Assembly (NCBI RefSeq): GCF_000013045.1
Contig: NC_007677.1
Location: 1,426,001 to 1,490,000 of the forward strand
Direction: 5' to 3'
Length of the DNA stretch: 64,000 nt
Source of the DNA: Salinibacter ruber DSM 13855
GTDB lineage: Bacteria; Bacteroidota; Rhodothermia; Rhodothermales; Salinibacteraceae
Positions 24,675 through 37,612 of this stretch are shown here, piece by piece; position 1 is the first letter of the stretch; each line of letters begins with the position of its first letter. Made by a program: the position numbers and the translations under genes. The notes beneath the pieces were generated by a model that saw nothing but the letters and a program-made list of their open reading frames with translations, made no database searches and was not told the origin of the DNA.

Positions 24675-24762
24675 GCACGGCCAGGGGTACCCGTTGCTCG
24701 TCGAGCACGGGCTGAGACACACCCTTCGAACCTGATCCGGCTCGCACCGGCGCAGGAAGTGC
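24675..24762 (+). promoter_or_regulatory. TPP (THI-element) riboswitch
   Basis: The conserved thiamine pyrophosphate aptamer is readable: AGGGGTACC, a variable stem, GGGCTGAGA, CACCCTTCGAACCTGATCC, a P4-P5 arm CGGCTCGCACCGGCGCAGG and the closing GGAAGTG. P1 can form between GCAC (24675-24678) and GTGC (24759-24762). Immediately after, GTGC-TTCG-GCAC (24759-24770) forms a rival UUCG hairpin using the same GTGC, a plausible expression switch. The controlled gene is the short-chain dehydrogenase that follows; no thi gene is in the window. Confidence 0.93.
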
Positions 24763-24844
24763 TTCGGCACCGTCCGGAGACTCGTGCATGAGCGACGTAC
24801 CGTCTGGCTCCACCGTTTTCCTCGTACCAGGAAGCCAGTCTCTC

Positions 24845-25609
24845 ATGCGTGATCCCGACTCGCAAGTTGTTGTCATCACCGGGGCCAGCCGTGGGCTCGG
24901 CGCCGCCATTGCCCGGACCTTCGGGCGGGAAGGCGCCCGCGTGGTGGTCAACTACTACCAGAGCCCGGATCGGGCCGAGGCTGTCGCCGCCGACATTGGC
25001 GACCGGGCCCTGCCCGTCCAGGCCGACGTGCGCGACCCGGACGCCGTGCAGGCGATGATCGACACCGCCACGGACCACTTCGGGGCGCCCGTCACGACCG
25101 CCGTCCACAACGCCCTGATCGACTACCAGTTCGACGCGGAAAATCGGGAGACCGCCGATACCATCGACTGGGAAGACTATCAGACGCAGGTGGAGGGGTC
25201 GGTGAAGGGGGCCCTGCACCTGCTCCAAGCCTGCCTTCCGGAGATGCGGGCGGCGGGGGAGGGGCGGTTTGTCGGCATCAGCTCCAACCTCGTACAGGCC
25301 CCGGCCGTCCCGTACCACGACTACACCACCGGCAAGGCGGCCCTTCTCGGGTTCACGCGCAACATGGCGGGCGAGCTCGGGGCGGAGGGCATCACCGTGA
25401 ACCTGGTGTCGGGCGGGCTGCTCGACGAGACGGACGCCAGCGCGGCCTCGTCGGACGCCGTGTTCGACGCCATCCGCCAGAACACCCCGCGCGGCACGGT
25501 GACCACCCCGGAGGAGGTGGCCGACGCGGTGCTATTCTTCGCGTCCCCCTGGGCCCGGGCCGTCACGGGGCAGAACCTGATCGTGGACGGCGGCCTCGTG
25601 ATGCAATAG
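24845..25609 (+). CDS. Short-chain dehydrogenase (FabG-like) under TPP riboswitch control
   Basis: A classical SDR of 254 residues from ATG 24845: Rossmann motif TGASRGLGAAIA, the cofactor/acidic region NYYQSPDRAE, catalytic Ser near GISSNLVQ, the YxxxK pair in YHDYTTGKAALLGF, and the C-terminal VTGQNLIVDGGLVMQ. It resembles 3-oxoacyl-ACP reductases and would reduce a carbonyl with NAD(P)H. Two starts are possible: 24845, preceded by AGGAAG and giving the normal SDR N-terminus, and 24788, preceded by GGAG and adding 19 non-conserved residues. A TPP aptamer lies directly upstream, so expression should fall when thiamine pyrophosphate is plentiful. That links the enzyme to thiamine supply; a similar FabG-like thiamine-regulated gene has been named oarX in comparative work, which I recall but cannot verify here. 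Confidence 0.85.
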   Translation: MRDPDSQVVVITGASRGLGAAIARTFGREGARVVVNYYQSPDRAEAVAADIGDRALPVQADVRDPDAVQAMIDTATDHFGAPVTTAVHNALIDYQFDAENRETADTIDWEDYQTQVEGSVKGALHLLQACLPEMRAAGEGRFVGISSNLVQAPAVPYHDYTTGKAALLGFTRNMAGELGAEGITVNLVSGGLLDETDASAASSDAVFDAIRQNTPRGTVTTPEEVADAVLFFASPWARAVTGQNLIVDGGLVMQ

Positions 25610-25651: not shown

Positions 25652-26353
25652 GTGATTCTTCTCGCCCTCGAAACCGCAACTTCCACCTGTGGCGTGGCCG
25701 TCCTGGACGACGACACGGTGGTTGCGGAGGCCCATCTCCGTCGCCCCCGCGTGCACGCTGAGCGCCTGACCCCGCTGGTCGAAGATGTGCTCGACCACGC
25801 CGACGCGACGCCGGCGGCCCTGGATGCCGTGGCCGCATCGATGGGGCCGGGGTCGTACACGGGCCTCCGCATCGGGGTGAGCACGGCAAAGGGATGGGCG
25901 CTGTCCACCGACGCGGCGTTCGTGGGGGTGCCAACGCTGGCGGCGTACGCCGCCCAGCTGCGTCCGGTCGCCGCGCCCGGAGACGTGGTGTGCGCACTGC
26001 TCGACGCCCGCCGGGACGAGGTGTACGCCGGGGCGTACCGGCGAACGACGGACGGACTGGACGAGCACGCGTCCCCGACGGCGCTTCCGGTCGACGATCT
26101 GCCCGGCTGGGTGGGGACGGTGGACGGGCGGCTGTGGCTCGTCGGAGACGGGGCGCCGAAGAGTCGGGCGGCTCTCGGCGACGCGTTCACGTGCACACTG
26201 ATTCCCGCCGACGAGAGGCCCCCGTCAGCGGGGTGGGTGGCCCGCTGCGGCCGCCGGCAGCTTGCAATGCACGGCCCCGACGACATGGCGACGGTCGAAC
26301 CGTTGTACGTGAAAGACGTGCATGCCACTCCGGCGCCATCCCCCTTCGACTGA
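25652..26353 (+). CDS. tsaB: tRNA threonylcarbamoyladenosine protein TsaB
   Basis: A 233-residue member of the TsaB/YeaZ family, the scaffold partner of TsaD and TsaE in making t6A at position 37 of ANN-decoding tRNAs. N-terminal ILLALETATSTCGVAVLDDD is the ASKHA strand-turn-strand; HAERLTPLVEDVL and SMGPGSYTGLRIGVSTAKGWAL are the diagnostic family segments. It lacks the metal-binding histidines of TsaD, as expected. The start is GTG at 25652, which gives the normal N-terminus. It follows the SDR gene by 42 bases on the same strand and precedes accD by 113. Confidence 0.93.
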   Translation: MILLALETATSTCGVAVLDDDTVVAEAHLRRPRVHAERLTPLVEDVLDHADATPAALDAVAASMGPGSYTGLRIGVSTAKGWALSTDAAFVGVPTLAAYAAQLRPVAAPGDVVCALLDARRDEVYAGAYRRTTDGLDEHASPTALPVDDLPGWVGTVDGRLWLVGDGAPKSRAALGDAFTCTLIPADERPPSAGWVARCGRRQLAMHGPDDMATVEPLYVKDVHATPAPSPFD

Positions 26354-26466
26354 GCTTCGTTTGGACTTTACGGGCGGCGTTTCTGATTTTCTGCTAGGGC
26401 GATCCCCGTCCCTGGGGCCCCTGCTGGTTCGCACACGATTCTTCGTACTCGTCTTTTCCCTCTGTT

Positions 26467-27315
26467 ATGCCCCCCTGGTTTCGGCGCGAGAAGGCCGGCA
26501 TCCGCACCACCCGCGAAGAACAGAATGAAATGCCGGAGGGGCAGTGGGTGAAGTGCCCGGAGACCGGCGAAATCACCAACCGGCGCGAACTGGAAGAGAA
26601 CCTGCTCGTCTTTCCCGGGTCGGGGTACCACTTCGGGATGGACAGCCACCAGTACTTCGGCTTCCTGTTTGACGACGGCGACTACGACCTGCACGACACC
26701 GATCTCCGCTCGGTGGACGCCCTCAATTTTGAGGACCGCAAGCCCTACAGCCAGCGGCTGGAGAGTGCCGTGGAGGAGACGGGCCAAAACGAGGCCGTTC
26801 AGGCGGCCACCGGCTCCGTTGGAGGACATCCCGTGTCGATGGCGGGCATGGACTTTAGCTTCATTGGGGGATCGATGGGGTCGGTCGTTGGGGAAACTGT
26901 GGCCCGGGCGATCAAGCGCGCCTACACGGAGGGCATGCCGCTTATCACCATTGCCCAGAGCGGCGGGGCCCGCATGATGGAGGGGGCCCTCAGCCTCATG
27001 CAGATGGCCAAGACGAGTGCGCACCTTACCCGACTCGACGAGGCGGGGCTGCCGTTCATCTCCATCCTAACGCACCCCACCACGGGTGGCGTCACGGCCT
27101 CCTTCGCGATGCTCGGGGACATCCACATCGCCGAGCCGGACGCGCTGATCGGGTTTGCCGGGCCGCGGGTGATCCGTGAGACGATTGGGTCCGACCTGCC
27201 GGAGGGGTTCCAGAAGTCGGAGTTTTTGCAGGAGCACGGGTTCGTCGACATGATCGTGGACCGGCGTCGCCTCCGCCGTCGCATCATCCGGCTGCTCAAC
27301 CTCCTGATGGAGTAG
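26467..27315 (+). CDS. accD: Acetyl-CoA carboxylase carboxyltransferase subunit beta
   Basis: A 282-residue beta subunit of the carboxyltransferase that moves CO2 from biotin to acetyl-CoA, forming malonyl-CoA with AccA. The core is clear: MDFSFIGGSMGSVVGE, SGGARMMEGALSLMQMAKTSA, HPTTGGVTASFAMLGD, GFAGPRVIRETI and FQKSEFLQEHGFVDMIV. The N-terminal region that in E. coli is a four-cysteine zinc ribbon reads WVKCPETGEITN...LVFPGSGYHF, keeping only one of the four cysteines, so zinc binding is lost. This cysteine-poor form is, to my knowledge, common in Bacteroidota. Upstream tsaB is on the same strand. accA is not in the window. Confidence 0.95.
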   Translation: MPPWFRREKAGIRTTREEQNEMPEGQWVKCPETGEITNRRELEENLLVFPGSGYHFGMDSHQYFGFLFDDGDYDLHDTDLRSVDALNFEDRKPYSQRLESAVEETGQNEAVQAATGSVGGHPVSMAGMDFSFIGGSMGSVVGETVARAIKRAYTEGMPLITIAQSGGARMMEGALSLMQMAKTSAHLTRLDEAGLPFISILTHPTTGGVTASFAMLGDIHIAEPDALIGFAGPRVIRETIGSDLPEGFQKSEFLQEHGFVDMIVDRRRLRRRIIRLLNLLME

Positions 27316-35992: not shown

Positions 35993-37219
35993 TCAGCACG
36001 TCCCCTCCGAGGCCGGGGCTTGGGCCTCTGCGGAAACGGGCGTGTCGTGCCCGCTCGCTGCCGCCTCGGCGCCCGCCGCCGTCAGGGCCTGACTCAGGTC
36101 TGCCCGGAGGTCGTCGGTCGACTCGATGCCGACGGAGAGACGGATGAGGCCGTTGGTGATGCCCGCCGCCTCCCGCTGCTCGGGGGCCATCGACGCGTGG
36201 CTCATGGTGGCCGGGTGCTCGATCAGCGACTCGACGCCCCCTAGCGACTCGGCGAGGGCAAAGACCTCGGTGGAGCGCAGCAGCGCTTCGACGTCCACCT
36301 GTTCGTCGTCGACGAAGAAGGAGACCATGCCGCCGTAGCCGTTCTGCTGAGCGCGTGCGATCTCGTGGCCGGGATGGTCGTAGAGGCCCGGGTAGCAGAC
36401 GCGCTGCACGGCCGGGTGCTCGTCCAGAGAGCGCGCGAGGGCTCGCGCATTGGTTTCGTGCTGGCGCAGGCGGACCGGTAGGGTCTTGGCCCCGCGGAGG
36501 ACGAGCCAGCTGTCGAACGGCGCGGCGACGGTGCCGTGCGCATTGGCCGCAAAGTCAACCCGATCGGCGAGGGCCTCCGTGCGGGCAATGATGGCGCCGC
36601 CCACTACGTCGGAGTGGCCGTTCAGGTACTTCGTCGTCGAGTACACCACGAGGTCGGCCCCGTAGTCGATGGGCCGCTGCAGGAGGGGAGAAAGAAAGGT
36701 GTTGTCGACGACAAGCAGTAGATCGTGTGCGTCGGCGAACTCGGAGAGGGCCTCCAGGTCGACGATGCGAAGAAGGGGGTTGGAGGGCGTTTCCACCCAC
36801 AAGGCCGTCGTTTCGGGCCGCACGGCGTCGGCAAGGGCGTCGCGGTCCGAAAGGTCTTCGTAGGAGACGGAGAGTTTGTCCTGATCGTCGAGACAAGAAA
36901 AGAGGCGCTCGGTGCCCCCGTAGCAGTCGTGCGCACAGATCAGGTGCGCACCGGCGTCGAAGAGCGACGTGACGGTCGACACGGCGGCCATGCCGGTGGC
37001 GCACGCCACGGCGCCGGCCCCGCCGTCGAGGTCGGCCAGCGTGTCCTCCAGGGCCGCCCGCGTCGGGTTGCCGCTACGGGTGTAGTCGTACCCTTTCGTC
37101 TCGCCGACATCTTCAAACTGGAAGATGGCCGACTGGTAGAGGGGGGGCACGACGCTATTGAACGTGTCGTCGAGGTCCTGCCCAGCGAGGGAGAGCGTTG
37201 TTTCCGGGTCCAGGTCCAT
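35993..37219 (-). CDS. Cystathionine gamma-synthase-family PLP enzyme
   Basis: A 408-residue member of the Cys/Met-metabolism PLP family (cystathionine gamma-synthase, gamma-lyase, O-acyl-homoserine sulfhydrylase). Visible: YTRSGNPTRAALEDTLADLDGG (46-67), the CATGMAAV phosphate-binding turn, ETPSNPLLRI (143-152), VVDNTFLSPLLQRPI (170-184), the PLP-lysine motif YSTTKYLNGHSDVVGG (Lys197), and the C-terminal ESLIEHPATMSHASM...IRLSVGIE. It is preceded by a SAM-I riboswitch with a terminator, so it is repressed when SAM is high, which points to methionine or homocysteine synthesis rather than degradation. The exact substrate (cystathionine synthesis or sulfhydrylation) cannot be settled from sequence alone. 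Confidence 0.88.
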   Translation of the reverse strand: MDLDPETTLSLAGQDLDDTFNSVVPPLYQSAIFQFEDVGETKGYDYTRSGNPTRAALEDTLADLDGGAGAVACATGMAAVSTVTSLFDAGAHLICAHDCYGGTERLFSCLDDQDKLSVSYEDLSDRDALADAVRPETTALWVETPSNPLLRIVDLEALSEFADAHDLLLVVDNTFLSPLLQRPIDYGADLVVYSTTKYLNGHSDVVGGAIIARTEALADRVDFAANAHGTVAAPFDSWLVLRGAKTLPVRLRQHETNARALARSLDEHPAVQRVCYPGLYDHPGHEIARAQQNGYGGMVSFFVDDEQVDVEALLRSTEVFALAESLGGVESLIEHPATMSHASMAPEQREAAGITNGLIRLSVGIESTDDLRADLSQALTAAGAEAAASGHDTPVSAEAQAPASEGTC

Positions 37220-37271: not shown

Positions 37272-37316
37272 GACAGAGGACCTCAAGGACGCACGCTCGC
37301 GTGCTCGAAGCAATCC

Positions 37317-37433
37317 TCTCATCTGTCCCCACGCGGGGCGGGGCAGGAGTTGGCACCAGGACGACCCCTCGCGTGGAGGGGTCCGGTTGCCACGACGTCA
37401 TCGGGCCTGTTCCCTCAGTCGTTCTTGATGAGA
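37317..37433 (-). promoter_or_regulatory. SAM-I (S-box) riboswitch
   Basis: Read on the minus strand: P1 5' side TCTCATC, then AAGAACGACTGAGGGA, CAGGCCCGATGA, GTGGCAACC, a GC-rich arm ACCCCTCCACGCGAGGGGT, CTGGTGCCAACTCCTGC, a further arm CCCCGCCCCGCGTGGGG and the P1 3' side GATGAGA. The order GAGGGA / GGCCCxATGA / GGCAACC / GGTGCCAAxTCC is the S-box consensus. It sits upstream of the cystathionine-synthase-type gene, whose product would supply methionine and hence SAM. Confidence 0.95.
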
Positions 37434-37612
37434 CAAATTCATCCTAAGAAACGGGGGGCGGGGTGTCAAGAAGCCGATGCGTCGGGGCGTGCGGCCCTCG
37501 CTCGTTCTTCACGCACGGGCGACACGTCCCCGAAACTTTTGGGGGACGATGTCGTGCACCAATGTCGACGATGCCTCTTGACTGACTGAGCGAGTCCACC
37601 GACGGCCCCATT

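Follow-up and report, generated by a model that had tools for sequence, protein, structure and literature searches.

The window, a 64,000-nt stretch of the Salinibacter ruber DSM 13855 chromosome, carries on its forward strand a TPP riboswitch aptamer (RF00059, 24673-24776) and, 68 nt behind its end, the start codon of a short-chain dehydrogenase (SDR) gene (24845-25609, 254 aa). The ATG at 24845 was chosen as start because relatives align from this position and share it. The longest ORF starts at 24788 (273 aa); this start is not conserved and was discarded. With 425.2 bits against a cut-off of 292 the protein is a member of NF006393 (PRK08642), and we propose that it acts as an aminopyrimidine-aldehyde reductase. 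A sequence-only reading of this DNA had described an SDR with normal motifs, and TGASRGLG, Ser147, Tyr160 and Lys164 of the classical SDRs are indeed all present, Y160 and K164 being conserved in 26 of 26 aligned sequences. The structure model (pLDDT 90.8) has the SDR fold according to a Foldseek comparison with the PDB; model and comparison do not tell the substrate. Database names label the protein 3-oxoacyl-ACP reductase. Its score with the FabG model TIGR01830 is 135.1 bits versus a cut-off of 297.75, and with none of the FabG models listed does it come near the cut-off.

Downstream and on the same strand follow tsaB (25652), 42 nt past the SDR stop codon, and accD (26467). This tsaB-accD pair (25652-27315, +) appears in the same order behind the SDR of the related locus L014, as judged by eye from ORF translations, and both genes could be co-transcribed with the SDR. 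The SDR had been taken for the sole gene behind the aptamer. It does stand solo directly behind it, but whether it is the only gene is uncertain because tsaB and accD follow on the same strand. Elsewhere in the window an ordinary SAM riboswitch (37316-37434, -, 81.2 bits) lies ahead of an ORF (35993-37219, -) which by eye reads like cystathionine gamma-synthase.

The aptamer was evaluated with cmscan on a stretch of 301 bases. The match scores 50.0 bits (E=3.9e-9) and is aligned over the full length of RF00059 (model positions 1-105) including the ligand core and P2-P5. Genome-wide it ranks last among three TPP matches (E=1.1e-8). Mismatches are mostly found in P1, where the cmscan alignment marks non-canonical pairs. 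The score lies below the Rfam gathering cut-off of 54.3 bits, which is why a scan of the full 64-kb window at gathering thresholds lists the SAM riboswitch alone and no TPP aptamer. Orthologous aptamers in front of orthologous SDRs exceed the cut-off in L005 (55.8 bits), L006 (55.2), L007 (55.0), L008 (65.6) and L010 (62.4) and remain below it in L004 (49.7), L062 (51.9), L013 (54.0) and L014 (49.2). The window aptamer is taken as a real, divergent member of the TPP riboswitches. The sequence-only reading had placed a TPP aptamer here and had named a covariance score below threshold as a refutation: formally the score is below threshold, but the full-length match and its genome-wide E-value confirm the aptamer. 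L011 has a further, weak TPP-like match (1782-1848, +, 30.4 bits) that lies about 3.8 kb 5' of its real aptamer and is probably due to chance.

The leader folds of nine sequences were compared (window, L062, L004-L008, L010 and L012). A canonical P1 is not formed, and a distal helix was examined in its place. Folded freely to its minimum energy, the window leader has 12 pairs between 24679-24690 (+) and 24797-24809 (+). The 5' arm of this proposed anti-aptamer helix, H-A, enters P2 of the aptamer, thus H-A would exclude the bound aptamer. Part of the 3' arm (CUGGCU, 24804-24809) is common to a proposed hairpin H-B (24804-24838, +), in which it pairs with the segment 24833-24838 beside the start codon, ending 6 nt 5' of it. 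H-A is the most favourable duplex that the 5' aptamer strand can form with the leader 3' of the aptamer; it occurs at a homologous place in all nine sequences, with its 3' arm ending 26-35 nt upstream of the start codon, and the loss of P1 recurs in relatives that retain this possible alternative helix. Shuffled sequences equal the energy of H-A in 0.4-34% of cases (32% for the window). Pair counts made by hand vary with the register, L008, L010 and L012 breaking three inner pairs in one register, and the energy model shifts H-A by one base in the same three. We therefore claim a homologous position and not strong covariation.

For the bound state P2 and P4 of the aptamer were enforced and only pairs of the shared arm were counted. 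Under these constraints H-A (9-12 pairs) is cleanly exchanged for H-B (5-11 pairs) in four of the nine sequences, namely the window, L006, L008 and L012; in the window H-B is missing from the free fold and has 5 pairs once the aptamer is enforced. The exchange is partial in L062 (9 to 3 pairs, plus 4 other pairs). L004 forms neither helix, L007 and L010 are without H-A in the free fold, and L005 goes the opposite way. Enforcing the aptamer costs 1-11 kcal/mol, a range that ligand binding could pay. From these folds we infer the sense and the mechanism of the switch as follows. At low TPP, 24797-24809 would be paired with the 5' aptamer strand, and the start region would be left open. When TPP is bound, the aptamer would form, 24804-24809 would pair with 24833-24838 near the ATG and translation would fall. 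Hence the model suggests that TPP turns translation off in this leader, the SDR perhaps being repressed by TPP at the level of translation.

A protein scan of a genome collection returned 55 loci, of which the 21 nearest (L004-L024, 44-94% identity) were considered as the SDR family, among them Salinibacter altiplanensis (L004) from the genus of the window genome. The remaining 34 (24-40% identity) were taken as other SDRs. A search with RF00059 found TPP aptamers in the genomes of all 21 loci and, by coordinates, upstream in the same gene run in 19 of them. In 14 loci (L004-L016 and L019) the aptamer is directly upstream of the SDR, and in five (L017, L018, L022, L023 and L024) it precedes an operon ending in or holding the SDR. 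In the genome of L020 TPP is present but not near the SDR, and the sequence of L021 is cut inside the gene. The Staphylococcales, the order that includes Staphylococcus simulans, have the SDR in 71 of 157 genomes (E <= 1e-60), and TPP lies upstream in 19 of 19 loci scanned out of 30 retrieved. The SDR is found in 2 of 199 genomes of the order of G014, from which L100 shows no TPP match. It is also rare in the phylum sample of the window (8 of 296 genomes at E <= 1e-50, up to nine candidates scored per genome); six of these eight have the aptamer, while L064 and L066 show none at E <= 0.01 in the stretch scanned. On plasmids, TPP accompanies the core-type SDR in four of five loci examined (16 records matched), and all six loci examined out of 27 plasmid records with LuxE hold LuxE, LuxC, SDR and TPP, five of the six aptamers being above the Rfam cut-off and one below. 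L020, L064, L066 and L118 have an SDR without a TPP match in the DNA scanned. The linkage of TPP and SDR is not chance. A survey of SDR orthologues for linked TPP aptamers or thi genes had been suggested as a check of the window linkage, and its outcome is positive.

A maximum-likelihood tree of 30 family members and nine outgroup sequences including E. coli FabG unites the family in one clade (support 100/99), as does an earlier tree without FabG (29 versus 15 sequences, 99/95). The clade comprises NF006393 and a sister group and leaves E. coli FabG outside. A core group including the window SDR (99/93 and 100/95) and a group of nine SDRs linked to LuxE/LuxC (99/95 in the first tree, 72/86 in the second) can be told apart; three of the latter were scored and reach 268-285 bits, just below the NF006393 cut-off. 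TPP linkage is seen for 28 of the 30 members from at least five phyla, L118 and L064 being without it, and four of the 28 linked aptamers are below the Rfam cut-off (window, L004, L013 and L123). All 29 family sequences aligned share seven residues (F96, Q115, L149, Y157, L192, T196 and S199), none of which occurs in more than a quarter of the 16 outgroup sequences; W109, H158 and D159 are nearly as specific in this comparison. Based on these residues, the LuxE/LuxC-linked and the core SDRs probably share one substrate class.

The gene neighbourhoods show four arrangements. The SDR can be solo, as in the window, or close an operon TPP-thiM-thiE-thiD-SDR, as in L017, L018, Neorhizobium and Gemmobacter. 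In the third arrangement it is followed by an FMN monooxygenase of the NtaA type, whose nearest solved structure is YtnJ. According to ORF lists the monooxygenase ORF is located 3' of the SDR in all 30 Staphylococcales loci (family scan on L019 only), and TPP-SDR-monooxygenase also occurs on plasmids of Rhodococcus and Pseudochrobactrum. The fourth is TPP-[transporter]-LuxE-LuxC-SDR. All nine loci of this type that were examined combine LuxE, LuxC and SDR, six of them having been chosen by LuxE alone, and seven of the nine have an importer. This is an ABC importer with an NMT1-like binding protein in L023, L024, Azospirillum and Priestia and an NCS2 nucleobase permease in Desulfosporosinus (L022), Lactiplantibacillus plantarum and Niallia; two Pantoea loci are without one. 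The L022 region also holds thiG.

Two surveys, of 289 and of 82 genomes, detected LuxE in five and seven of them, respectively. Ten of the 12 loci have TPP within the stretch scanned; L109 is the L022 locus, with its aptamer farther upstream, and L110 ends too soon. Except for L115, every one of the 12 loci has LuxC next to LuxE. The SDR lies beyond the stretch scanned in these 12 loci; it is established for L106, which is the L024 locus, and for L109. thiD adjoins LuxE in three of the 12 (L111, L113 and L115) and thiM, within about 1.5 kb, in none. L115 (1269-2237, -) reads TPP-LuxE-thiD with a LuxE match in two pieces and no LuxC match, and looks like a decaying cassette. Directly upstream of the TPP-LuxE-LuxC cassette of L104 lies an NtaA-type monooxygenase (32-1204, +) with 39% identity to that of Staphylococcus. 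A Niallia taxi plasmid carries two tandem TPP aptamers (L122, 2784-3080) upstream of NCS2-LuxE-LuxC-SDR, and in a food strain of L. plantarum the entire TPP-NCS2-LuxE-LuxC-SDR cassette is aboard a plasmid of 10,287 bases (L121).

The inventory of thiamine genes indicates which half of the vitamin may be concerned. ThiC has no match in the window genome (G000, 99.99% complete). ThiG and ThiD are present and clustered with ThiO, ThiS and ThiE, the last with 113 bits versus a cut-off of 145, yet the best in its list. The genome thus has genes for the thiazole and for the phosphorylation of hydroxymethylpyrimidine (HMP) and lacks the usual pyrimidine gene. Of its other two TPP aptamers, one lies ahead of TenA and one ahead of a ThiY-like protein whose nearest structure is 3ix1, the formylaminopyrimidine-binding protein ThiY. 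Inspected by eye, this NMT1 protein (L060, 10057-10995, -) lacks an evident signal peptide, and no permease adjoins it. Because of the missing signal peptide a THI5-like HMP synthase was considered for it; it matches the ThiY structure with 2e-26 versus 2e-11 or weaker for THI13 or THI5.

Inventories were made for 26 genomes, many of those checked being draft or metagenome assemblies with completeness given for few of the 26. Among the 23 with a TPP-linked SDR, 15 have ThiG without ThiC, five have both, one has ThiC only and two have neither. ThiC is thus present in six (G008, G014, G015, G016, G019 and G021), and G021 has ThiC without ThiG, the reverse of what a purely pyrimidine role would predict for that genome. 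The three genomes having the SDR without the aptamer all have ThiC. ThiG without ThiC is found in 19 of the 296 phylum-sample genomes, comprising 6 of 6 genomes with TPP-SDR and 13 of 290 others (Fisher 3e-8, a value that ignores descent, as three of the six are Salinibacter and three belong to one other family). Absence of ThiC by itself was rejected as evidence since 193 of the 296 genomes are without it; only the ThiG-positive, ThiC-negative class separates the groups. This pattern, along with the TPP-preceded TenA and ThiY-like genes, is read as pyrimidine salvage.

The aptamer, the gene family, the conserved linkage, the neighbours and the absence of ThiC in the presence of ThiG are computed results. 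On their basis we infer the substrate, the direction of the reaction and the roles of the partner enzymes. LuxE, LuxC and SDR chemistry corresponds to activation of an acid, reduction to the aldehyde and reduction to the alcohol, and thus the acid and the aldehyde of HMP are suggested as intermediates. In the window genome the SDR would reduce 4-amino-5-formyl-2-methylpyrimidine, dependent on NAD(P)H, to HMP, the substrate of ThiD. In relatives it would perform the last step of the LuxE-LuxC-SDR cassette, by which an imported pyrimidine carboxylic acid would be converted via the aldehyde to the alcohol. The flavin monooxygenase could free the aldehyde oxidatively from some larger compound, which is the weakest step of this proposal. 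Our favoured reading, held at about even odds, is that the TPP riboswitch controls an SDR by which an oxidised precursor of thiamine, in all likelihood the pyrimidine aldehyde, is reduced to HMP. Somewhat more tentatively, a widespread and often plasmid-borne riboswitch-controlled salvage route may exist, in which LuxE/LuxC reduce an imported aminopyrimidine acid and an OarX-type SDR makes HMP, the aldehyde step standing in for ThiC in Salinibacter-like genomes. The sequence-only reading had expected an uncharacterised carbonyl reduction somewhere in the synthesis, salvage or use of thiamine. The TPP linkage and the neighbouring thi genes support it and leave salvage as the more specific role, the pyrimidine being the probable target.

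The substrate could alternatively belong to the thiazole side. ThiM would then be supplied with hydroxyethylthiazole (HET) that the SDR makes by reducing 4-methylthiazole-5-acetaldehyde, while LuxE/LuxC would reduce thiazole acetic acid. Since thiM is part of the thiM-thiE-thiD-SDR operons, and indeed their first gene, this has to be considered, and the ThiC-containing, ThiG-less genome G021 fits it as well. However, the window genome has the genes for its own thiazole (ThiO, ThiS and ThiG), no ThiC, and pyrimidine-related genes behind its other TPP aptamers. Likewise the transporters adjacent to LuxE/LuxC are of nucleobase or NMT1 types, and thiD adjoins LuxE in three of the 12 loci, thiM in none. 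We regard a thiazole substrate as unlikely. Slightly less probable still is that the SDR removes a carbonyl piling up when TPP enzymes fail, such as an aldehyde derived from a 2-oxoacid or an acyloin, and hence serves thiamine use or stress and not salvage. Repression by TPP would equally suit a gene needed in thiamine shortage, and in L120 a gene for acetolactate synthase, a TPP enzyme, is found 1.3 kb upstream of the SDR, but operons with thiM/thiE/thiD, LuxE/LuxC, importers or thiG (L022) point to supply of the vitamin.

We judge the two remaining explanations very improbable. The window linkage might be a relic whose aptamer lost P1 and TPP binding, leaving the SDR constitutive. The sub-threshold score and the missing canonical P1 would agree with this. 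Yet the ligand core and P2-P5 align across the full model, 54 of 222 columns are invariant in the alignment of nine sequences, most of them inside the aptamer, and relatives share the same P1 loss together with the possible alternative helix. Marginally the least probable is a duplicate FabG of fatty-acid synthesis, controlled by TPP since acyl-CoA supply needs TPP enzymes. It would account for the database name and for accD nearby, with tsaB and accD behind the SDR in the window and, by eye, in L014. The FabG score is less than half the cut-off, E. coli FabG is excluded from the clade, and thi genes accompany the SDR in other phyla. Moreover the SDR was not found in 288 of the 296 phylum-sample genomes at the threshold given above, so that those genomes make fatty acids by other means. 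The FabG duplicate was thus rejected on family scores, tree and distribution, and the fatty-acid role implied by the name of NF006393 ('3-oxoacyl-ACP reductase') is unsupported by the context of the window SDR.

If pyrimidine salvage holds true, it would provide a substrate for a thiamine-regulated enzyme; to our knowledge the oarX-type enzyme is known only as a predicted oxidoreductase. Genes annotated as 3-oxoacyl-ACP reductase, long-chain fatty acid ligase and LuxC-type acyl-CoA reductase would have to be renamed, and oxidised pyrimidines would join the microbial vitamin B1 economy. Genomes with ThiG and without ThiC occur in several of the groups sampled, and the pyrimidine compounds they can use decide where such organisms live. 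Within open-licence literature (titles and abstract openings) we found no work on a TPP-controlled SDR of this kind or on LuxE/LuxC in thiamine metabolism, and a search for the name oarX returned unrelated work only. The link to LuxE-LuxC and the pyrimidine argument come from the present analysis, and as far as we can tell from this literature the reading as a pyrimidine pathway is new.

Several known systems resemble parts of this picture. The TenA/ThiY route of Bacillus salvages degraded thiamine by hydrolysing amino- or formylaminopyrimidine, and the window genome has TenA and a ThiY-like protein in the same TPP-preceded set; in contrast to that hydrolytic route, the SDR step proposed here is a reduction. 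Fatty-acid reductase of bioluminescence shows the same LuxE-LuxC order and the same Pfam families (LuxE and LuxC). In contrast, the SDR-linked cassettes are preceded by TPP, contain the SDR and mostly bring along an importer (NCS2 or NMT1-type, 7 of 9 loci), and with 69 of 550 bits for LuxE and 92 of 750 bits for LuxC the L023 proteins are far below the bioluminescence equivalog cut-offs. A FabG-like, thiamine-regulated oxidoreductase located, as in the window, behind a THI element was reportedly named oarX by Rodionov et al. (2002, J Biol Chem). The window SDR probably belongs to the oarX family, which the sequence-only reading had also considered. Among the SDRs, pyridoxal 4-dehydrogenase (3nug) acts on a heteroaromatic vitamin aldehyde, oxidising pyridoxal. 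It is the fifth Foldseek match of the window SDR, with the same fold and 34% identity, but belongs to another NCBIfam family, in which the window SDR scores 149 of 325 bits.
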